Shown here in pieces: positions 4,982 through 24,260 of a stretch of 24,260 bases of DNA. Positions within the stretch are counted from its first letter, which is position 1; each line of letters opens with the position of its first letter. Source of the DNA: a virus; IMG/VR virus record IMGVR_UViG_3300018080_000585, positions 1-24,260 of that record; one strand, given 5' to 3'. The notes below the pieces were generated by a model, which did not search any database, was not told the DNA's origin, and saw only the letters and a program-made list of their open reading frames with translations. Both the position numbers and the translations under genes were made by a program.

Positions 4982-5122
4982 ATGCCGCTTAGTAAAAAGG
5001 GCCGAAAGATTAAACGTGCCATGCAAAAGACTTATGGCAAAGAGAAAGGCAAGCGGGTATTTTACGCAAGCCAGAACAAAGGGACAATCAAGGGTACACA
5101 CAAGAAAAGGAAAAAAAGATGA
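4982..5122 (+). CDS. Small basic conserved phage protein (46 residues)
   Basis: The ORF begins MPLSKKGRKIKRAMQK and contains YGKEKGKRVFYASQNKGTIK before a Lys/Arg tail. I recognise this pattern (KKG.KI.RAM...YG..KG..VFYAS.NKG.IKG) from many phage genomes, usually near the portal and capsid genes. No function is assigned that I know of. Strong positive charge suggests nucleic-acid or capsid contact (inference). GGAG at 4969-4972 lies within the end of the portal gene. Its TGA at 5120-5122 overlaps the next ATG, and an A7 run precedes the overlap. Confidence 0.78.
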   Translation: MPLSKKGRKIKRAMQKTYGKEKGKRVFYASQNKGTIKGTHKKRKKR

Positions 5123-5304
5123 GTTTGAGAAAGAAGCTAAGGCAACCGGCTGAAGAAACCGCGGATGGCGCCGAGACGATTCAATCGCCGGACACTGTCA
5201 TCGTAGAAAAAACTGTCGAAGCGAAGCCGAAGAAGAAGCGCAAGAGCAAGAAGGCGAAGCCGAAGAAGAAGCGCAAGAGCAAGAAGGCGAAGGATGGAGC
5301 TTAG
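5119..5304 (+). CDS. Lys-rich small protein with duplicated basic motif
   Basis: The 61-residue product has an acidic first half (ETADGAETIQSPDT) and then two copies of an 11-residue basic unit (AKPKKKRKSKK). It looks like an intrinsically disordered, nucleic-acid-binding tail protein. No family is recognised. It starts by ATGA overlap with the 46-residue gene and itself overlaps the next gene by 11 bases. The copy number of the basic unit may vary between related phages, because the repeat is identical at the DNA level. Confidence 0.6.
   Translation: MSLRKKLRQPAEETADGAETIQSPDTVIVEKTVEAKPKKKRKSKKAKPKKKRKSKKAKDGA
5221..5286 (+). repeat. Perfect 33-base tandem duplication
   Basis: Two identical, in-frame 33-base units lie at 5221-5253 and 5254-5286, followed by the first six bases of a third (GCGAAG). 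They encode the duplicated Lys-rich motif of the surrounding gene. Perfect identity indicates a recent slippage-type duplication. Confidence 0.9.
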
Positions 5305-8577: not shown

Positions 8578-10089
8578 ATGAAAACGCTTATTTTATGGGC
8601 TGCCATACTAAGCTTGGTGTTTTCTCCTGTCGCCTGGGCCAGACCGATATCCGGTGCGACCACATCGATCAAGATGGGTTCGTTTACCGGCCCTGTCGAC
8701 GGCGCGGCACAGGATGACAACGTCAAGGCTTCACTGGACCTTGCCCATACAGACCTGGACGCCGGCTTGGCCTACAACGTGGATGTTCTTGGCCTGCTTG
8801 GCTTGGGCGGCGTCGCTACCGTTTGGTACGTGGACAGCGCCGAGGCTACCGGCACTGAGGACGGCACCTCGTGGGCTACGGCCACCGATACGCTGGATGA
8901 GGCAATCAGCTTGGCTGGTGTTGTGGCCGACGATGCGGATATAATTCTTGTCGCCGCCGGCCACTCTGAAACGCTTACTGCCGCTGATGGCGTCGATTGC
9001 GATGTTGCAGGCATAACGATAATCGGGCTTGGCAATGGCGAGAATAGACCGCTGTTCGATTACACCAACGCCAATGGCGAGTTCGTTATCGGGACTGACG
9101 ATGTCGCGATCCACAACTTGCAGTTTTTGGCCAATGTGACCGATGTTACCACGGCGATAAATGTGGAGACTGGTTCGGAGAACTTTGTTATAGACAACTG
9201 TCGGTTCTACGTGGATTCGACTGGTACGGACGAGTTTACCGATGCCATAACCACCACTGCCGACTGTGATAACGGTCGCATTACCAATTGCCGGTTCGAG
9301 ATGGGCGCCGGTGGTGCCGATGCTGCCATTCAGAATGTGGGCTGTGACTACCTTGAAATCTCTGGCAATATCATAACTGGAGATTACGCGACTGCGTGTA
9401 TTGAGGACAAGACGACCGCATCTATCTGGGTCACGATCAAGGACAACGTTCTTGTCAACGGCACAGTGGGCGGTGCGGCGGGCCTTAATGCGGTTGCCTG
9501 TATTTCATTGAAGGCCGATACCGCCGCGATGATCGTCAATAACAGCGTGGCCTGTAACGTAGCTACGCCGGACTTGTCGATTGTTGCTGCTGACGGTTTC
9601 CTGTTTAACAACATTTATAACGAAACCGAAGGCGGCGATAGCGGTGGCCAGTTGGTCGGCACCAGGGCTGGACAGACTTATACGGCCACAAAGACTGCAA
9701 CGTCTGATGATGACGATCTGTTCGATGTTGACGGCGGGCCTATTCTAATCACCAGCTTTACTGGCGTTGTGACAACTCAGATTGGGGCTGTCGCTAATGC
9801 TCTTTCAATTACGCTGGATGCTGATAGCGGCTGGATTGACTCTGACTTCAGTACAGCCGTCGAGCTAAACGGGGATGTGGCTGGGACGCGGTATGTTTTT
9901 TCAGATGCCGATGAGTCGGTCTTAACGCCAATATCCGACACCAATGGTAACACCAACTCCATGCGACAGTGGTATTGCGGCGAAGGCATGATTGAGCAGG
10001 TCAACGGCGGCGCTGGTACGACCGGTGCGATTAAGTGGTATATGACTTACATACCATTTGATGACGGCACTACTGTGACGCCACAGTAA
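8578..10089 (+). CDS. Beta-helix protein with an N-terminal signal peptide
   Basis: The 503-residue product begins with a classical Sec signal: MKTL, a hydrophobic core, then AWA at 19-21 as a likely cleavage site. A strand after GGVATVWYVDSAEATGTEDG leads to SWATATDTLDEAI, the usual entry to a parallel beta-helix. From about 120 to 350 there are irregular turns with N-rich corners (FVIDNCRFYV, GRITNCRFEM, LEISGNIITGDY, VTIKDNVLVNG, AMIVNNSV), as in pectate-lyase-like folds. The C-terminal 140 residues are a separate beta domain. No catalytic residues can be assigned. AAAGGA at 8564-8569 sets the start, and a stable hairpin follows the gene. It could be a virion glycan-binding protein or a secreted, envelope-acting one. 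Export by a structural-cluster protein is unusual. Confidence 0.65.
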   Translation: MKTLILWAAILSLVFSPVAWARPISGATTSIKMGSFTGPVDGAAQDDNVKASLDLAHTDLDAGLAYNVDVLGLLGLGGVATVWYVDSAEATGTEDGTSWATATDTLDEAISLAGVVADDADIILVAAGHSETLTAADGVDCDVAGITIIGLGNGENRPLFDYTNANGEFVIGTDDVAIHNLQFLANVTDVTTAINVETGSENFVIDNCRFYVDSTGTDEFTDAITTTADCDNGRITNCRFEMGAGGADAAIQNVGCDYLEISGNIITGDYATACIEDKTTASIWVTIKDNVLVNGTVGGAAGLNAVACISLKADTAAMIVNNSVACNVATPDLSIVAADGFLFNNIYNETEGGDSGGQLVGTRAGQTYTATKTATSDDDDLFDVDGGPILITSFTGVVTTQIGAVANALSITLDADSGWIDSDFSTAVELNGDVAGTRYVFSDADESVLTPISDTNGNTNSMRQWYCGEGMIEQVNGGAGTTGAIKWYMTYIPFDDGTTVTPQ

Positions 10090-12248: not shown

Positions 12249-14755
12249 GATACCCGATAATTACATTCAACGCCGGCAAGTTGACGCCCTTGATAGACGT
12301 GCGCAGCGATACGGAGAAATACTCCGCCGGCTGCCGGCAGTTGCAGAACATGATCCCGCTTATCTATGGGCCGGTAACCCGCAGGCCGGGTACGAAGTAC
12401 ATCGCCGATTGCGCCGACCATGATGTTAAAAGCCGCATGGTGCCGTTTGTCTACTCTTCAAATGTAACATACGAGCTGGAGTTCGGTGACCAGGTTATCA
12501 ATGTCTATTATGAGGGCGAGCTGGTCCAGGGCGATATCAGCAGTCCGTACCTTGAGGACGATTTGTTCGAGCTTCAGTTCCGGCAGTCTGCGGACGTGAT
12601 GTGGATAGTACATTCCTCATACAAGCCGAGGAAGTTGTCGAGGGTTTCGGCCACGTCGTTTACTCTTGCCGAGATACCCTTCGAGAATGGTCCGTTTTTG
12701 GAGCGCAACGACATTGCCGAGGATGATGGCGTGACCATATCGGTAACTGGCTACACCATTGCCACAGCGACCAACGGCGCAGCGGGCGCAGGCAACTTCA
12801 CCATAACCAGTTCGACCGACATATCCGGGCTGTTTCCTGCCAATCAACGGTTTTATGTAAGCGGCTCGACCGGCAACGACGGGCCTTATACCGTACATGC
12901 CACGACAGCGACGACATACAGTGGCACGACATGCACGATATACACCAACGAAGCCATATCCGATGGGACCGATGACGGGCAGATAATGGTCGATGGCGGC
13001 ACGGTCGCGCTGACCTCGTCGAAGGCGACGTTTGTAACCGGCTCTTCCGGCCATGTGGACAGCCTGTTCAAGCTCACGCATAAGCGCGAGCAGACATCGA
13101 CTACCGGCAACACCAATACCACCGCACAGGTCGGCGAGATAATCGATGTCAAGGGCAACTGGTCATTCACCACGCACGGCAACTGGGAGGGCAGCGTTGA
13201 GTTGCAACGAATGGAGGACGGGACCAACTGGGAGGTGCTGAGAACATACACATCGGTAATGACCGGCGGCAAGGGTTCCCGGAACATACAGAAGTCCGAT
13301 ACCGAGGAAGCAGACGGAGTCCAGTACAGGATTTACGGCAAGATAACCGACGGCACGTTATACGCCGACTTGATCGTGGACGAGAGCACGCAGCACAGCA
13401 TTTACAAGATAACCGCTGTGACCAACACCAGCGAGGCCACTGCGACTGCGATTATTGCGGCCAATGAGCATGACGCAACTGTCCGATGGGCCGAGGGTGC
13501 GTGGTCGCATGTCCGAGGCTGGCCGTCGGCGATAACATTCTTCGAGGAGCGAGCGGTATACGGATTCACCAACAGCGATGCACAGGATATCTGGTTAAGT
13601 GGCACCGGCGATTTTGAGGATTTCGACACCGGCACGGATGACACGTCGGCATTTACTTTGACATTGCCGACATCGGCCAGGGGCCAGTGGCTTGCGGCGT
13701 TGGAGATACTTGCCGCAGGTACTACCGACGGCGAGTGGCGTATCGGCTTGCCTACCAGGGACGAACCGATAACACCGACGAACAACTGGGCGATGAAGCA
13801 GCAGACGGCAATCGGCTCGGCCAACCTTCAGCCTATCGAGGTCGGCAATGCCTTGCTATTTGTGGACTATGCGGCAAGGAAGATACGAGAATATGTTTGG
13901 CACGACACCGAGCAGAAGTACGTTGCGCCGGATTTAACAGCGCTGGCCGAGGATATCACCAGCGGCGGCATAACATGCCTTGGCGTGCAGAAGCGGCCGG
14001 ATACGATTATCTGGTTCACCATAGCGAACAGTCCATATTTGATATCAATGACCTATGAGCGGGAGCAGGACGTTGTGGCCTTTGCCGAGCATCCGCTTGG
14101 CGGCGATGGCATAGTCGAATCGTTCTGCATTACTCCGGGCAGTGATGAGGACACGATAACCTTGTCGGTACGCAGAACGATAAACAGGCAGACCAGGCGA
14201 TACATCGAGCAGATGCAACCTCGCGACTGGGGCAGCGACCAATCCGATGCGTTCTTTGTGGACTGCGGCATCACCGATACCACCGGGCTTGCTCGGATAG
14301 ATAACCTTGGCCACTTGGAGGGCAAAACCGTCAAGGTTCTGGTTGACGGTGCAACCCAGGACGACAAGACCGTAGAGGATGGCAGCATCACACTTGATGC
14401 GACCGGCGGCACTGTCCATGTCGGGCTTGGCTATACTTGGATAGTCGAACCGATGCGTATGGACACGAACAGCCCGGCCGGTACAACGCACGGCAGGGCC
14501 AAAAAGATACCGGAGATTGTCATAAGCTTTTACCAGACGGGTGCGGCAAGCTATGGTGATGGCGTTGATACGTACACAATTCCCTGGCGTAGCACCGAGG
14601 ACTATGACACGCCACCGGCGCTGTTTACCGGCGATAAGGAAGTGGCATTTGATGGTGGGTTCAGCACGGACGATGCGATAGAAATACGCGGCGATGATCC
14701 GGTCCCTGCTACGGTACGGGCGATAATACCTAAAGTTGAGGTGACAGAACCATGA
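12245..14755 (+). CDS. Tail tubular protein B (T7 gp12-like nozzle)
   Basis: The 836-residue protein forms the tail nozzle. The N-terminus (ITFNAGKLTPLIDVRSDTEK, then CRQLQNMIPLIYGPVTRRPG and FVYSSNVTYELEFGD) is the family signature. A second signature lies near 415-440, with PSAITFFEERAVYGFTNSDA. A third follows with WLAALEILAAGTTDGEWRIG and, later, YEREQDVVAFAEHPLGGDGI. An inserted beta-rich region at about 150-400 (Thr/Gly/Asp-rich, with an immunoglobulin-like look) makes it somewhat longer than T7 gp12, which is about 794 residues. It overlaps its neighbours on both sides by ATGA. Confidence 0.92.
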   Translation: MRYPIITFNAGKLTPLIDVRSDTEKYSAGCRQLQNMIPLIYGPVTRRPGTKYIADCADHDVKSRMVPFVYSSNVTYELEFGDQVINVYYEGELVQGDISSPYLEDDLFELQFRQSADVMWIVHSSYKPRKLSRVSATSFTLAEIPFENGPFLERNDIAEDDGVTISVTGYTIATATNGAAGAGNFTITSSTDISGLFPANQRFYVSGSTGNDGPYTVHATTATTYSGTTCTIYTNEAISDGTDDGQIMVDGGTVALTSSKATFVTGSSGHVDSLFKLTHKREQTSTTGNTNTTAQVGEIIDVKGNWSFTTHGNWEGSVELQRMEDGTNWEVLRTYTSVMTGGKGSRNIQKSDTEEADGVQYRIYGKITDGTLYADLIVDESTQHSIYKITAVTNTSEATATAIIAANEHDATVRWAEGAWSHVRGWPSAITFFEERAVYGFTNSDAQDIWLSGTGDFEDFDTGTDDTSAFTLTLPTSARGQWLAALEILAAGTTDGEWRIGLPTRDEPITPTNNWAMKQQTAIGSANLQPIEVGNALLFVDYAARKIREYVWHDTEQKYVAPDLTALAEDITSGGITCLGVQKRPDTIIWFTIANSPYLISMTYEREQDVVAFAEHPLGGDGIVESFCITPGSDEDTITLSVRRTINRQTRRYIEQMQPRDWGSDQSDAFFVDCGITDTTGLARIDNLGHLEGKTVKVLVDGATQDDKTVEDGSITLDATGGTVHVGLGYTWIVEPMRMDTNSPAGTTHGRAKKIPEIVISFYQTGAASYGDGVDTYTIPWRSTEDYDTPPALFTGDKEVAFDGGFSTDDAIEIRGDDPVPATVRAIIPKVEVTEP

Positions 14756-16953
14756 GTGTAAATGACACGACAAGGCGGGTATCAGCTACCGGCACAGGCG
14801 CCGAGCAGACCGTCAGCTTTACCTTTCCAATAGTCAACAATAGCGATATCACTGTTTACCAGCGTGAGATATCGACCGGCGACGAAACGGTATTGACCGA
14901 AACGACACACTACACCGTGACCAATAACGGCACGCGAGGCGGCTCGATAACCACAGTATCGCCGTATATCTCTTCATCGTACCAGATTCACGTGGTGCGC
15001 GATACCGGGTTGGCGCAGGAGACGATACTACCTACGGGTGGGGACTATTCGGCATCTGATATTGAAGCAGCATTTGATAAGATACACCGGATATTGATAG
15101 AGCTGAACGACGACATAAGCCGCTGCATACGCATTCCGGAAACAGATGCTTCGGCCACCACTACGGAGTTGCCTAACAGCGTTGACCGGGCAAGCGACAA
15201 TATCACCGCAGACTCCAATGGCTACATAACCGCATCCGATTCGGTCGAGGAAGGTTCTGTGAGTTTTACGTCCTTCGGGACCAGCATAGCCGAGGCGGCG
15301 AACGCCTTATCGGCGAAAAGTACGTTCAATCTGGACCACGTATACGATGTTCGCGACTATGGCGCCGCCGGCGACGGGGTGACGGATGATGCGTCTGCGA
15401 TACAGTCTGCCATAGAGGCGGCTGAGGCGGACGGCGGGATTGTATTCTTCCCTCCGGGCACGTACCTGATTCAAACGACACTGTCGCATGACCCGGACGG
15501 GTCTACTACGCTGCCGGTTCACATGGTTGGCGTCGGCTGCAAGGCAAGCAAAATATACTCAACGGCTACTGGCAACGCTTTAACAGTTGGGGTTGCAGGA
15601 ACTGATGTTTATGGGTTCGGGATGCACGGGCTTGCATTTTATGGTGATGCCTCCAGCGGCGAGAACGGCGTCGAGCTTATCCAGATGCACCAGTGGGAGA
15701 TATCCGCCTGCTGGATATACGGGTTCTATGGTGACGGGTTGACCCTCACTGCGGCGTGGAATGGGGTGATCCACAACTTCAGCCATTTCGGCGATGCGAC
15801 TACACAGAACACCGGAAGCGGCATTTATGCCACAGGCAACGCCAACGGCGAGGTGGTGACCGTTACGGTCAAGAACTGCGTAATCGACTGGAACAAGGAG
15901 TGGGGCATCAAGTGGGACTCGAATAGCGGGCAGACATCAAACGTGGTAGTCAAAGAAAACGTCATCGTCGCCAACGGCTTAGGCGGCGTCCACTTTCATG
16001 GCTGTACCGGTTCGGAGATAGCATTTAATGAAGTGGAGGCCAATGACAAGGAATGTTCCACCGATGCCGGAATGGGCATTCAAATAGACGGAACGACCTA
16101 TCAGTGTGTGGCGGTCGAGATTCATGGAAATGATATCGTCAACCATACGGACAGTGGTACGAGTAATGGCGGTGTGGGCGTTCACATAGGCAATTCGGAC
16201 TCGGTAGCCGTGCATGAAAACAGGTTTGCGAGCAATGATGTCGGCAGCATCCAAACGCTTACCACGGCGGTCAACGTGCAGATCGGCAATAATTATTTTG
16301 GCGATACTACTCGTTATATTTTGGGGGGCATCCAAGGGTTAAACGCTGCGGCGGAGAATTTCCTTAAAAATGGCTCATTTGTGCAGTGGTCGAGTGGTTC
16401 GACGAGCGCGCCGGATAGCTGGACATTAGAGAGGGCTACTTGCGACAAGGAATTGACGACTGTAAAGCTTGCGACGCAGTCAGTAAAATTGACTTCGACA
16501 ACGACACATGCCAATTTAAGGCAATCACTTACTACCGATCAGGTCAATAATTACAAGGGGCAGGTAATGAGTTTTGGTGTGTGGTGCTATGCCCCATCGA
16601 CCAATACGCAGACGCAGGCGATAACGATACTCGATAGCGCTGGGCAGACATGGAGCAATGATATACCAAAAGACGATGCTTGGCATTGGATAGAGCTACG
16701 CAGGACGATTGACAGTACGGCCCCTTATATCATTGCAGGAATATATGTCAATAAGGGCAGTACTTCAGATAGTGATGATGTTCTTTATGTGTCGTGCGCA
16801 ACTTTGCGTTTGGGCAACGTTGTAGCACCGTACACCCCGCACCCGGCGGAGGCGTTACGCAACTTGTACAAGGACCAGGCGCCGAACTATGTCTGCGTGG
16901 ATAACGCGGTAGTGTGCCTGGATAACGAAATAGTAATTCTGGACAGGAGTTAA
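14752..16953 (+). CDS. Tail fibre/spike: T7-type N-terminus, pectate-lyase-like beta-helix, C-terminal binding domain
   Basis: The 733-residue protein has three parts. Residues 1-125 are the T7 fibre attachment domain (QTVSFTFPIVNNSDITVYQR, YQIHVVRDTG, FDKIHRILIELNDDISR). It docks on the gp11/gp12 tail. From about 196 to 520 is a Pectate_lyase_3-like beta-helix that opens VRDYGAAGDGVTDDASAIQ and GGIVFFPPGTYLI, with N-rich turns after it. From about 535 comes a carbohydrate-binding-like beta-sandwich (NFLKNGSFVQWSSG, APDSWTLERA, then the LRQSLTTDQ strand). The helix may be a depolymerase, but no catalytic pair can be assigned by eye. It overlaps the nozzle gene by ATGA. In T7 the fibre gene follows gene 16, so its place here differs. 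Confidence 0.85.
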   Translation: MSVNDTTRRVSATGTGAEQTVSFTFPIVNNSDITVYQREISTGDETVLTETTHYTVTNNGTRGGSITTVSPYISSSYQIHVVRDTGLAQETILPTGGDYSASDIEAAFDKIHRILIELNDDISRCIRIPETDASATTTELPNSVDRASDNITADSNGYITASDSVEEGSVSFTSFGTSIAEAANALSAKSTFNLDHVYDVRDYGAAGDGVTDDASAIQSAIEAAEADGGIVFFPPGTYLIQTTLSHDPDGSTTLPVHMVGVGCKASKIYSTATGNALTVGVAGTDVYGFGMHGLAFYGDASSGENGVELIQMHQWEISACWIYGFYGDGLTLTAAWNGVIHNFSHFGDATTQNTGSGIYATGNANGEVVTVTVKNCVIDWNKEWGIKWDSNSGQTSNVVVKENVIVANGLGGVHFHGCTGSEIAFNEVEANDKECSTDAGMGIQIDGTTYQCVAVEIHGNDIVNHTDSGTSNGGVGVHIGNSDSVAVHENRFASNDVGSIQTLTTAVNVQIGNNYFGDTTRYILGGIQGLNAAAENFLKNGSFVQWSSGSTSAPDSWTLERATCDKELTTVKLATQSVKLTSTTTHANLRQSLTTDQVNNYKGQVMSFGVWCYAPSTNTQTQAITILDSAGQTWSNDIPKDDAWHWIELRRTIDSTAPYIIAGIYVNKGSTSDSDDVLYVSCATLRLGNVVAPYTPHPAEALRNLYKDQAPNYVCVDNAVVCLDNEIVILDRS

Positions 16954-18259: not shown

Positions 18260-19739
18260 TTTCCCGATATACAGAACTGAAACTACCATCAGCCCCCGCG
18301 CACCAGTGCGCGGCTCGATAGACCCGCGGATAGGCGCTGCCGAAATCGGACAGGCTATAAGCCAAGCAGGCTCGGCCATTGCCAGTTTGGGCATGAAATA
18401 CGAATTGAAGGAGGCGAATACCCAGTTCAGCCAGTACAAAAGACAGGTCAAGGAAGATGACTTGACGTTGTCCCAAGAGATACTCCAGGAAACAGACCCG
18501 GCCAAACATGATGAAATACACCGCAGACATGCCCAGAATAGAGCAAAGTTGCTGGAAGGATTGAGCAATCGCAGGGCGGCAGAGGCCGCTCGATTGTGGG
18601 ATAACAATCAGGCACCGATACGGCAGGAAGCATTATTAAAGGGCAAGAAGGCCAGGATTGAGGATAACTGGAGAGCTGAACTGTTTGCCAAGCAACAGGA
18701 AGTTGCCCGCACCGGCGAGATGGGCGACATAGCCGCCTTCATAGCCAGGGGCATCAAAATAGACCAAGATAACCCGGACGAAATTGGTATGCCTTTAGAC
18801 AAGCTGGAGGCTGCCAAAATACTGGCGTCCACAAAACAGGCTGCCGCAGTTGCGCAGGTTAAGCAGCAATACATGGCCGGGAACTATGATGTTGCGAGGC
18901 AGATGGTCGATGACTCGGAAATACTCAGTATTGAGGACAAGGAAACCTTACTGGTAAACATTGGCGTTGCGCAGCGCCGGGCACAAACTGTGCAGACGCA
19001 GGCGAGTATAGAGGCGCAGAAAGAACTATATGCCAGGGAAGATGCGGGTGAACCACTGACCCGGAAGGATTACGAGCGGGCGTATCCTGACCCGGACGAG
19101 GCCGATCAGCGCTATGACGAATATAGGGCCAACCAAGCCGCGATTGCCAGAGGTGAGGCCGATCAGGCAGCCAATGGCGTTCCGCAGGTTCTGGCCATGT
19201 TTGAAGCGACTATTGATCTTCGGCCAGAAACTATTACTGAGGAAGATATTTGGCGGGCAGCAGACAAGGGCGTTGGCTACAAGAATGCCGCAAGGCTTGT
19301 TGATCGGTTGCAAGCGAATAAGGCCAAAAAGTTTGCCCCTGAGCAAAAGTATGACAGCCAGTTATCAACGCTGTTGAATGCCGGCTATTTTGGCGACAAA
19401 GACGAAGCCGAAACCAGCAATACATATCTTGACCTCAAGCGGAAGATGACGGAGTTTATCACATCGCAAAAGCCATCCGAGAAGGATGCGGATACATATT
19501 TCAAGCGACTTATCGTCGATGACTTCAAACTGTTTAGCTGGGGCGGTTGGGATGAAAAGGGCAAGAAATTCAGCTATGAAGATGCTGAAGGCAATCAGAT
19601 AGAGCAAACATTCAGGTATGGCGATATACGCAACCGAAGGACGAAGGACGGTAAGGTTATACAGGAATTCTTCGCCGGGCCGGATGAGAATGGAAACCCA
19701 TTGTGGATCCCACGTCTATATCCAACAGACCTACGTTAG
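18252..19739 (+). CDS. Internal virion protein C (T7 gp15-like ejection protein)
   Basis: I take ATG 18252, which overlaps the previous stop by eight bases; the in-frame TTG at 18240 is less likely. The 495-residue product is almost wholly helical and highly charged. Residues about 25-140 hold SQAGSAIASLGMKYELKEAN followed by long helices (DPAKHDEIHRRHAQNRAKLL). Further helical hairpins run to 420. The end is a short aromatic beta segment (FKLFSWGGWDEKGKKFSYED) before PRLYPTDLR. This is how gp15-type periplasmic tunnel proteins look, and the neighbours agree. No enzymatic motif is visible. Confidence 0.78.
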   Translation: MANFPIYRTETTISPRAPVRGSIDPRIGAAEIGQAISQAGSAIASLGMKYELKEANTQFSQYKRQVKEDDLTLSQEILQETDPAKHDEIHRRHAQNRAKLLEGLSNRRAAEAARLWDNNQAPIRQEALLKGKKARIEDNWRAELFAKQQEVARTGEMGDIAAFIARGIKIDQDNPDEIGMPLDKLEAAKILASTKQAAAVAQVKQQYMAGNYDVARQMVDDSEILSIEDKETLLVNIGVAQRRAQTVQTQASIEAQKELYAREDAGEPLTRKDYERAYPDPDEADQRYDEYRANQAAIARGEADQAANGVPQVLAMFEATIDLRPETITEEDIWRAADKGVGYKNAARLVDRLQANKAKKFAPEQKYDSQLSTLLNAGYFGDKDEAETSNTYLDLKRKMTEFITSQKPSEKDADTYFKRLIVDDFKLFSWGGWDEKGKKFSYEDAEGNQIEQTFRYGDIRNRRTKDGKVIQEFFAGPDENGNPLWIPRLYPTDLR

Positions 19740-19753
19740 ACATTGATGAGATA

Positions 19754-22700
19754 ATGTCTGACGACTTCGACGTGTCGAAGGTGGTGGACCAATCTGGCCG
19801 CCGCAAGCTGGAATTACTGCGCAATGACCAGGCATTAAGCCCGTTGGCGGACCAGATAGAAGATCGTTATCGCATGTCTGCGTTTATAGACAGCATCACT
19901 GATGTACGGCGCCCTATAAATGCCACAGCAACGATGTTTGAGGCTGTTACCGGGCAGGACGATTCAACCGGGGCATGGGAGAGCATAAAGAATTCATGGC
20001 GCATGGGCCGCAACCAGATGGATAGAGCAGAGTTGCGGTGGCAAGAGATGTTGGGTAGGCGACAGATTAACTGGGAATTGCCGCCGGTTGGACAGCTTCC
20101 TACGACGAAAGACAACTGGTTCGTATCATCACTAAATAGCGCTACGAATATATTGCCGATGCAGATTGATGCAGGTCTATCCGGGGCCAAATATGGTCTT
20201 GCTACCGGCGCTGCCGCCGCCGGCTTGGCTGCTGCGGCAGGCCAGGCGGGTCCGCAGGTGGCTTTGCCGGAAGAAGCTGTTACCGTTCCTGGTGCATTCG
20301 CTATCTTTGGGGCACTTGGCACGAAATACGGAGCGGCCAAGCGGGCAATGGAGTTGGAGGCTGGTCTTGAGTTTGAGGCGCTTATCCAGATGCGAGGTCC
20401 GAACGGCGAGCGAATAGACCCGAATGTGGCCAGGGCTATCGCTTCCGGCGTCGGGTTTGTCAATGGCCTGTTGGAGCTTGCCCAGATTGAAACGCTTGTC
20501 AAGACCATCCCTGGAGCAAAAAAGGTCTTGCGTAATGGCATCAGGCAGTCCATACGCAAGATGATAGCCAATCATTCCTTGCTGCGGTTAGGCCGCAAAC
20601 ACTTGGGGTCTTATGGCAAGACAATTGCTACGGAAACGGCGCAGGAGATTGCCCAGGAGTCAACCAGCATCATAGGCGATGAGCTTGCCAAATACATCAG
20701 GAATCAGGCCGATGAGGGCAAGATATCCCATGCCGATGCCGGCCAAATCCTTGAACGGCTGACCCAAACGGCAACTGAGAGCATCAAGGGCTTTTCTGTG
20801 CTTGCTGCGCCCGGGCACATAGGCGGCACGGTGGTTGATGTTATCGACAACCAGCAGGTTCGCACCGCTGAGAAAGTGGCTCCGGACCAGCAAATCCGGC
20901 GTGAAACGGAGATTGTCCCGCGTATTGACCCGCTTAGGATGGTCGAGAAGGCCCCTGGGGCACCGCAGGAGGCCGTAACTGCCCCGGAGGTGGCCCCAGT
21001 ACCCACACAGCCGTTAGAGGCCCAGGAGCAGGCCGAGGTGGCCCAAATCGAGGCCAATGTGGCGGCGGAGTTGCCGGCAACGGTCAAGCCAAATCTGTAC
21101 ATCGGCAACGTAACCCAGCGAATGAAGAGCAAATTCGCTGAGATATGGGGTACGGAGGAAGCAGACGTAAAGCCGTTCCTCGATGGGCCATTCCCGACCA
21201 AGCGGACGGCTATCGAAATGACCGGCGATCAGGCGATGGAAACGCTGGTTGTCTTGGAGGAAAGCCTCAACCAGAGGCTTGATGACAACCTTATCAGCAC
21301 CGAGAGCGATCTTGCCAGGGCAAATGCTGACTGGGGCGATATCAAAGAGCTTCGCAATGTTCTCGGTCTGCCGGAAGCCAAGCGGCCATTTACTGTCCAT
21401 CGGGCCAAATATGGGGTTTTGACGCCTGAGCAGGTGGCGGGCAAGATCGGCATCGCGCCGGAATTATCACGGGAGCAATCCGTTATCGGGGCATTGGGCA
21501 AGCGGATACTATTCACGGTCCAGAAATCCGCCGCCGATGTGATCCGAGTATCCCGCATTGACCAGCTAAATAATGTCATGCGCAGGATGCGAAAGGCAGC
21601 CAAGGAGGGCTATGCCGAAGCGAGGAAGGAGTATCGCCAAGCTCAGTATCTGAAGAAGCAGATAGAGATACGGAACCGACTGATTGATCGGATATCCAAA
21701 ACGCCGAGCAAGAATATCGACCCGTTCTACGCCAATGCCATTAAGCGGATTCAGTCTGCGATAGATTTTTCGGCACAAGGCAAGAAGCTTGCCGAGAAGG
21801 AAAGCCTGCGAAGCTTCCTGGACCAGAACCCGGACAAGAAGAATGAGATACCATCCGACCTTGTCGAGGCATTGGACAAGCGAGATATTGAATCGTTTAC
21901 TACCAGCCAGTTACAGCAGATTTTGGAGGAGGTGCAACGGCTTAGCAAGTTGGGCAGATTGAAATCCAAGTTACTCGCCAAGCAACGGGTCAAGGCCAAG
22001 GCGGCCAGAATTGCTGCCGCTACCGAGGCGGTGCGGGCCGCGAGAAAACCGAAGGGGCCAACTGCCGAACGGGCATGGACACTAAGACCGTTGCGGTTAT
22101 TGGACATGCTGGATGGGATGAAGAAGTTTGCCGGCACGCTGGTTACAATGTTTGATACGGCGATACAAGATAAGTATGACCAGGAACTGCGGCATACAGA
22201 TCACCGGCAGCAAAGGGGTCTGGCAAAACTCAAAGAGCTTGGCCTTACTCTTACTCATTTTGCCAAGAGGCGCAAGGTCGGCGATGTTACCATGACCGTA
22301 GATGATATGTGCGGCATCTACGCCGGCTGGATGAACGAGCAATCGAGGCTTGCCCTGCAATACGGCGGGATACGAATGGAAAACGGCCAAACATTGCTTA
22401 TTACTCAAGAGATATACGATCAAGTAGTGGAGGCCCTTACTGCCGAAGAGAAACGTTGGGCTGAGTTTATTATTGAGGAATACGCAGACAACTGGGAAAG
22501 AATCCGTAATGCTGTGCTTGAAACAGAGAACCGGGACTTGGGCCGGGTCACGAACTACACCAAGATACGTCGGATTGGTGTTGACAAGGCCGATAGCGCT
22601 GACGTTCTGGCGGGATTCGACTATTCCGACGAGAGCGACTATCGTAGCACGGTAGTCAAGGTTCACGACAAATTTACCAAGGAAAGGCAACAGATACCGC

Positions 22701-23881
22701 CGGAGTATCAGCTACCGATAGAAACGTCTTTGACAAGGATATGGGAGAGCGAGATACGCAAGCAAGAGCATTACATCGCTATGGCAAGGTTGCTCAAAGA
22801 CCTTAATGCGGTTGTCAGGGACAAGGGTTTCAAAGAGGCGGTTACCGAGATGTTTGGCGACAAGGTTTATACGTCCATACGGAACTACCTCAAGCGCACG
22901 GCGGACCCGGACTATTATCGCACCTTTGACGATGTGGAGAATATATCACGGATATTGCGGAAAAATGCGGCGATGGGGTTTTTGGCTTACAACCTTCTTA
23001 CAATGGCCAAACAGGCGCCTTCTATTGCATTCTATGCGATCAACTCCAGCTACAGTGATTTGTTCATGTCGGCCATACAGGTGGCGATCAGTCCGAAGAA
23101 AACATACGAGGCGATACTGAGCAGGAACCAGCAAATAAGCCATGCCCGGATAGTTAGGGAAATGGAAGAGCTAAAGCATACCAATCCTTCGGCATGGACC
23201 TTTATCGTTAGGCGGGTAGGTCTATCAGGAATGCGTGGTATTTACGAGGTGGACCGGGCGGTGCGAATAATCGGTGAAAACGCAGTAATAAACTACCAGA
23301 TGCGGCAAGGCTTGTCGATGGATGAAGCAGCCAAGAAAGCCAGGCAAACATCGCTGAGGACGCAACCGGCAGCGGGTTCAAAAGATATCGCTCAACTGTA
23401 TGCCAATAATGAGATATTGAACTGGTTTACGATGTTCACAAACCAGTTGAACCAGATATATAACGTGGCGACATACGATGTTTTTGCCGCATGGTACAAC
23501 CACCAGTTTGCCGAGGTGGGCAGGTCGGTAATAGCTTTAGGCGTTGTGGCAGCATGGATATGGGCGCTTCAGAACAGGCGGTTGCCAGAGGAGCCTGAGG
23601 ACATATTTGACGCAGTCACCGACCAGGCGGCAGCATCGATACCCGTTGTAGGCCAAGCGATATTGTCCGGCAAGCGAGGCTGGCGGTCGCCCACTGTGCC
23701 GCTCATTTCAACGGCGGCAAGAACATCAGGTGCGGTATTTAGCGGGGATATGGACAAGATCATGCCCGCATTGCTGGAGGCAACGGCAGTATCCACTGGG
23801 ATACCATATATCGCCATCAAGCGGGCCTATGAAACGGTAGAAGAGGAAGATTTGTGGGAGCTAATCGGCGGCAACAAGTAA
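19754..23881 (+). CDS. Large internal virion protein D (T7 gp16-like ejection protein)
   Basis: With ATG 19754 the protein has 1375 residues; GTG at 19703 would add 17 and overlap the previous gene by 37 bases. Neither has a good ribosome site. T7 gp16 is similar in size (about 1318). A small-residue hydrophobic stretch lies near 125-190 (GLATGAAAAGLAAAAGQAGP). A Pro/Ala/Glu linker lies near 395-440. Long charged helices run through 600-760. A C-terminal domain (about 1040-1375) has MAKQAPSIAFYAINSSYSDL, RQTSLRTQPAAGSKDIAQLY and a hydrophobic helix, VIALGVVAAWIWAL. I recognise this C-terminal type from large podovirus ejection proteins. I see no transglycosylase motif. The role as part of the DNA conduit is from synteny and size. 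Confidence 0.82.
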   Translation: MSDDFDVSKVVDQSGRRKLELLRNDQALSPLADQIEDRYRMSAFIDSITDVRRPINATATMFEAVTGQDDSTGAWESIKNSWRMGRNQMDRAELRWQEMLGRRQINWELPPVGQLPTTKDNWFVSSLNSATNILPMQIDAGLSGAKYGLATGAAAAGLAAAAGQAGPQVALPEEAVTVPGAFAIFGALGTKYGAAKRAMELEAGLEFEALIQMRGPNGERIDPNVARAIASGVGFVNGLLELAQIETLVKTIPGAKKVLRNGIRQSIRKMIANHSLLRLGRKHLGSYGKTIATETAQEIAQESTSIIGDELAKYIRNQADEGKISHADAGQILERLTQTATESIKGFSVLAAPGHIGGTVVDVIDNQQVRTAEKVAPDQQIRRETEIVPRIDPLRMVEKAPGAPQEAVTAPEVAPVPTQPLEAQEQAEVAQIEANVAAELPATVKPNLYIGNVTQRMKSKFAEIWGTEEADVKPFLDGPFPTKRTAIEMTGDQAMETLVVLEESLNQRLDDNLISTESDLARANADWGDIKELRNVLGLPEAKRPFTVHRAKYGVLTPEQVAGKIGIAPELSREQSVIGALGKRILFTVQKSAADVIRVSRIDQLNNVMRRMRKAAKEGYAEARKEYRQAQYLKKQIEIRNRLIDRISKTPSKNIDPFYANAIKRIQSAIDFSAQGKKLAEKESLRSFLDQNPDKKNEIPSDLVEALDKRDIESFTTSQLQQILEEVQRLSKLGRLKSKLLAKQRVKAKAARIAAATEAVRAARKPKGPTAERAWTLRPLRLLDMLDGMKKFAGTLVTMFDTAIQDKYDQELRHTDHRQQRGLAKLKELGLTLTHFAKRRKVGDVTMTVDDMCGIYAGWMNEQSRLALQYGGIRMENGQTLLITQEIYDQVVEALTAEEKRWAEFIIEEYADNWERIRNAVLETENRDLGRVTNYTKIRRIGVDKADSADVLAGFDYSDESDYRSTVVKVHDKFTKERQQIPPEYQLPIETSLTRIWESEIRKQEHYIAMARLLKDLNAVVRDKGFKEAVTEMFGDKVYTSIRNYLKRTADPDYYRTFDDVENISRILRKNAAMGFLAYNLLTMAKQAPSIAFYAINSSYSDLFMSAIQVAISPKKTYEAILSRNQQISHARIVREMEELKHTNPSAWTFIVRRVGLSGMRGIYEVDRAVRIIGENAVINYQMRQGLSMDEAAKKARQTSLRTQPAAGSKDIAQLYANNEILNWFTMFTNQLNQIYNVATYDVFAAWYNHQFAEVGRSVIALGVVAAWIWALQNRRLPEEPEDIFDAVTDQAAASIPVVGQAILSGKRGWRSPTVPLISTAARTSGAVFSGDMDKIMPALLEATAVSTGIPYIAIKRAYETVEEEDLWELIGGNK

Positions 23882-24260
23882 ATGAAGATTTTCCCCCTGA
23901 CAACTCTGGAGCAGCTTAGCGGCACGGCGCGAAGCGCCTTCGACTGGAACAGCCAGTCGCTTACTGGCGTCGACTCGCTCACGATAGCGGGAACCTTTAC
24001 CGATGGCACAGCAAGCCTCACGGCTGGCGCATGGACCGGCATTGCGTCGCTCGACGGCGGAGGCACTATTGACCTCGAAGACAATCTCGATGGTACTGGG
24101 TTTACGATAACCGGCGGGACCTTAACTGACGGTACGCTCTCGACTACTGCGGGGGTAATGACAGGCATCGCATCGCTGGATGGCGGCGGGACCATTGATC
24201 TCGAAGACAACCTTGACGGTACAGGCTTTACCATCACTGGCGGGACACTGACCGACGGCG
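23882..24260 (+). CDS. Second fibre-like protein of 42-residue repeats (5' part only)
   Basis: The reading frame opens at ATG 23882, right after the previous TAA, and stays open to the window edge (126 codons). A 24-residue start (MKIFPLTTLEQLSGTAR) is followed by a shortened repeat (LTGVDSLTIAGTFTDG). Then come full units at residues 40-81 and 82-123, and the beginning of a third. Each unit reads TDGT.S.TAG..TGIASL, DGGGTIDLEDNLDGTGFT, ITGGTL. Gly/Thr/Asp repeats of this sort build fibrous beta-structures in phage fibres. T7 has its fibre gene at this place, after gene 16, but the T7 attachment domain is not seen here. The gene is cut by the window. Confidence 0.75.
   Translation, partial: MKIFPLTTLEQLSGTARSAFDWNSQSLTGVDSLTIAGTFTDGTASLTAGAWTGIASLDGGGTIDLEDNLDGTGFTITGGTLTDGTLSTTAGVMTGIASLDGGGTIDLEDNLDGTGFTITGGTLTDG
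23999..24260 (+). repeat. 126-base coding tandem repeats, protein-conserved but DNA-diverged
   Basis: Units lie at 23999-24124 and 24125-24250, with a third starting at 24251. Units 1 and 2 agree at 38 of 42 residues with no length change. Of the 38 conserved residues, 27 use different codons in the two copies. Confidence 0.9.

Follow-up and report, generated by a model that had tools for sequence, protein, structure and literature searches.

The record analysed here consists of one virus contig, 24,260 bases in length, and we refer to the whole of it as the window. Its genes run in the order terminase, portal (head-tail connector), capsid, tail protein, tailspike and internal proteins, and the portal is ~30% identical to its counterparts in Pelagibacter phages of the HTVC010P group. 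At the end of this virion structural module, after the terminase, portal, capsid and tail genes and directly behind the stop of a gene for a 1392-residue protein, an open frame begins with ATG and extends for 126 amino acids on the + strand (23882-24259), still open where the contig ends (Table 1). Two complete, adjacent 42-residue units occupy most of it. In its sense frame the pattern GT[LFI]TDGT-x5-G-x2-TG has two exact matches where none is expected by chance, and the spaced double-TDGT pattern appeared in no shuffled window, indicating that the repeat is real. Because of this motif and the gene order, we read the frame as the beginning of a virion protein that resembles tail fibres; the fragment itself has no Pfam or PHROG match, and matches to curated families occurred only in other carriers of the motif. 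The unit is presumably beta-rich, with a peptide that would be fixed by the fold of a fibre shaft. AlphaFold monomer models of low confidence (mean pLDDT 47 and 55) contained strands in one case and none in the other.

Table 1. Features at the right-hand end of the window, and the two motif-bearing genes of virus contig L054
Feature	Position	Strand	Basis or remark
Upstream gene, 1392-residue protein, probable internal virion protein	19703..23881	+	Conserved in related viruses, where a different fibre-like gene comes next
Gene for a probable tail-fibre or other virion surface protein, 5' part	23882..24260	+	ATG start; motif; gene order
N-terminal segment, contains TGVDSLTIAGTF, supposed shortened unit	23882..23998	+	Similarity to the unit P=0.24
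Repeat unit 1, 42 residues (residues 40-81)	23999..24124	+	Comparison at lag 42
Repeat unit 2, 42 residues (residues 82-123)	24125..24250	+	38/42 residues and 11/38 codons in common with unit 1
Third unit, first three residues (TDG) only, cut off by the contig end	24251..24260	+	Sequence
Two motif genes of L054	1756-3576 and 10575-11087	-	LDGTG-ITGGT-TDGT motif in common with the window, codons randomised

The upstream 1392-residue protein has no Pfam match above the cut-off, and its relatives are found in L002 (66-76% identity, 66% over its length), L003 (36-42%) and phage OP947163.1 (28%). In all three, a long fibre-like gene follows within ~0.7 kb of the homologue, and in OP947163.1 this gene carries the name "tail fiber". 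The window's fibre fragment shows no similarity to the corresponding genes of L002 and L003, nor did the phage protein search, which is what covered OP947163.1, match its fibre-like gene to the fragment. At the site after the 1392-residue gene, the fibre position thus appears to be conserved and the fibre itself replaced. In L064, too, a motif-bearing gene comes after a large gene that resembles the 1392-residue protein, as judged by eye rather than by alignment. Elsewhere in the window, a 733-residue tailspike (14752-16953) combines a phage tail N-terminus with a pectate-lyase-like beta-helix; the virus probably carries both a depolymerase-type spike there and a fibre at 23882. A 503-residue protein with an apparent signal peptide (8578-10089) has relatives at ~30-34% identity in L110, L085 and L012, and the same contigs carry TDGT-motif fibres. 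On the - strand of L003, positions 20765-21103 hold an open frame in which Ala-Met and Ala-Leu alternate almost throughout, apparently reflecting a simple repeat in the DNA.

Aligned at a lag of 42 residues, the two units have the same residue at 38 of 42 positions. Of these shared residues, 27 are encoded by different codons and 11 by the same one, as the sequence-only reading had claimed. Over the whole 48-residue overlap, 43 residues but only 13 codons are identical. At the DNA level the units are 70% identical, with a longest exact run of 11 bases, and a repeat-finding program reported a 113-nt pair at 76%. Fourfold sites differ in 21 of 29 cases, and by the Nei-Gojobori method dN is 0.108 and dS is too large to be estimated, which bears out the same reading's description of near-saturated synonymous change around a constrained peptide. 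Third-codon GC content is 0.60 in both units, close to that of the neighbouring genes. In this pair, the only two complete units, the synonymous sites have reached saturation but do not go past what chance would give. These values support the view that the units do not derive from recent duplication or gene conversion. The contrast drawn earlier with the duplication at position 5221 was also right: positions 5221-5286 hold an exact 33-base tandem duplication (100% identical), which, within a small basic protein apparently starting near 5120, encodes the lysine-rich repeat AKPKKKRKSKK. A repeat placed right where a metagenomic contig stops might raise the suspicion of a sequencing or assembly artefact, but 43 of 144 bases differ between the copies, 33 of them at third codon positions, a pattern that errors or misassembly would not give, and we find this explanation barely credible.

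Random recoding is the baseline that a codon difference of this kind needs before selection on codons can be claimed. When the codons of the shared residues were chosen independently at the phage's codon frequencies, 13.5 shared codons were expected where 11 are seen (P(<=11)=0.24); the frequencies of the structural genes gave P=0.19 and those of the gene itself P=0.11. The number of identical bases (101 of 144) sits beside 102.7 under random recoding, and the longest exact match of 11 bases beside a mean of 11.5. The idea that codons are actively selected to differ, since DNA identity would let recombination delete repeats, can point to the slight shortfall in shared codons and to the lack of any longer exact match. 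The shortfall, however, lies within chance and the longest match is as long as random recoding makes it on average, even if a test on one pair has limited power and modest avoidance could hide in it. The synonymous differences are explained by random choice at the genome's codon frequencies, an outcome that the sequence-only reading had itself named as refuting, and its suggestion of selection against DNA identity is not supported.

Repeats in other virus genes allowed the same comparison on a larger scale. A scan of IMG/VR with GT[LFI]TDGT-x5-G-x2-TG returned more than 100 stretches, which sit in long repetitive proteins, several of which have matches to PHROGs for virion structure or tail fibres. 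Fibre-like genes of many uncultured viruses carry the motif GT-x-TDGT, and it is not peculiar to the phage of the window. A second scan, for a double TDGT at a spacing of exactly 42 residues, gave many matches, a good part of which belong to other types of repeat, for instance GTSGTSG. From both scans we pooled 78 non-redundant genes with repeated segments of about 30 or more residues and at least 85% identity, a sample that is biased towards TDGT proteins, contains non-independent pairs within genes and includes several compositional repeats of the GTSGTSG kind. In 34 of the 78 genes the most alike pair lay within chance codon identity. Significant codon avoidance was not found among the 723 pairs: five fell below z=-2, and none of the 128 pairs that are at least 88% identical did so. 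With low-complexity pairs removed, a filter whose cut-off the window's own pair just fails to reach, 16 of 34 genes and 82 of 145 pairs were within chance and one of the 145 fell below z=-2. The pooled fibre repeats therefore show no excess of below-chance pairs either, and we give active selection on codons very little credence. It is also very improbable that selection, acting on lineages or on codons, favours phage fibre arrays whose units have little DNA identity, arrays of identical units being lost by recombination; if this were true, the survivors would resemble neutral saturation in any single pair.

The pooled arrays also place the window's pair on a scale. Their median residual codon similarity is 0.22, with many pairs retaining some DNA similarity, and the window's pair stands at the saturated end of this continuous range, not outside it. 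Genes shared by the window and L002 offer a second yardstick: their codons are at or near saturation at protein identities of 29-66%, so saturated synonymous sites are normal on such a time scale. In protein, units 1 and 2 are better conserved than any of these shared genes.

The residues ahead of unit 1 had been taken for a shortened unit and, with it, for a sign that the array once expanded or shrank. Here TGVDSLTIAGTFTDGT does resemble a unit that lacks the DGGGTIDLEDNLDGTG stretch, yet residues 1-39 are not significantly similar to the unit (P=0.24). In other viruses the spacing between GT-x-TDGT motifs is 29 residues in 38 cases and 42 in one, and the spacer fits this ordinary spacing of 29. 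By itself, then, the short spacer shows neither expansion nor shrinkage. It may be that the short form is the usual state, of which the 42-residue unit is a lengthened version. The TDGT repeats of uncultured viruses (for example L017, L041, L109 and L116) share with the window the GT[LFI]TDGT-x5-G-x2-TG pattern, often in several units per protein, and matches to virion structural or tail fibre PHROGs; the window departs from them in its rare 42-residue spacing, where 29 is usual, and in the additional DGGGTIDLEDNLDGTG stretch.

One independent parallel came from L054, an unrelated 11-kb virus contig with two genes that contain NLETDLDGTGYTITGGTLTDGTIQITGGDLT and NLEKDLDGTGYQITAGTFTDGTIQITGGDLT. 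Compared with each other, these are identical at 34 of 40 residues and share 14 codons against 12.3 expected, and unit 2 of the window (DLEDNLDGTGFTITGGTLTDG) matches the first of them at 17 of 21 residues. L054 is thus like the window in its NLE-DLDGTGY-IT-GT-TDGT motif and in joining high peptide identity to codon identity at the level of chance. Unlike the window, it has a single motif per gene, in genes ~7.6 kb apart and with no tandem, and beyond the motif no other similarity between the two contigs was found. Related motifs occur in L116, L092 and L064, and the peptide is constrained beyond the phage of the window. Such a motif, found in unrelated viruses with unrelated codons, is what one would expect if each unit had been imported on its own by recombination, from the fibre gene of a different phage, with codons that differ by source lineage, and horizontal transfer of single units has been described for some BACON-domain arrays in the tails of gut phages (PMC6949934). 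Against separate import, third-codon GC content is the same in both units and near that of the neighbouring genes, neither unit is clearly nearer in its codons to any outside sequence, and no donor turned up in the collections searched. We consider this origin unlikely.

Other routes to relatives yielded little. Protein searches of IMG/VR, INPHARED phages and the PDB returned nothing usable for the fibre, probably because low-complexity filtering and exact seeds of 7-8 residues hide distant relatives, and degenerate peptide patterns did better at finding kin. A pattern for the part around DGGGTID had one viral match, in L247, that was unconvincing and one bacterial match, in L248, that was unrelated; one aimed at the array's far end had no match. 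A search for kin through the 499-residue gene added none, protein and pattern searches, in collections that may leave out near-identical records, found neither an overlapping nor a sister contig, and no close relative of the fibre gene turned up that would have allowed a direct measure of selection.

Taken with the recoding results, these comparisons make it likely that the window holds an old fibre repeat whose peptide is kept by purifying selection and whose synonymous sites have drifted to equilibrium, free of recent homogenisation. The units would have formed long ago by duplication or exchange. Purifying selection would then have held the residues, and drift would account for synonymous positions that now stand at equilibrium at phage codon frequencies. 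Homologous recombination generally requires longer identity than the 11 bases of the longest exact match. Recombination between the units is therefore probably rare, which would preserve the array: they have probably diverged beyond the point at which such exchange could make them alike or remove one, and the codon-diverged state may maintain itself with no selection on codons at all. What speaks against an old repeat of this kind is that many of the pooled arrays do retain DNA similarity between their units. Between repeats, relaxed selection is what is usually reported (PMC5120217), and the 90% protein constraint in the window is stronger than that. The window, with one independent parallel in L054, is a clean example of a fibre repeat peptide outliving all DNA similarity. 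Such repeats escape searches that rely on DNA or on database families, and degenerate peptide patterns are better suited to find them.

Among known tandem repeats, the BACON-domain repeats of crAssphage resemble that of the window in belonging to a probable phage tail protein. Duplication of units or their horizontal transfer gave rise to them (PMC6949934, a text in which the words "synonymous" and "nucleotide" are absent), and they consist of a different, larger domain. Polyubiquitin shows the pattern of the window's repeat, with head-to-tail units, a conserved protein and many synonymous differences, and has prompted the same debate, between birth-and-death evolution under purifying selection and slow concerted evolution (PMC10457151). 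As that paper discusses it, the study by Nei et al. (2000) explains the polyubiquitin pattern by purifying selection. Polyubiquitin differs from the window's repeat in being a cellular protein that is processed to monomers and in having undergone concerted evolution in several lineages. The repeat of the window is probably an ordinary old one under purifying selection, of the kind debated for polyubiquitin.
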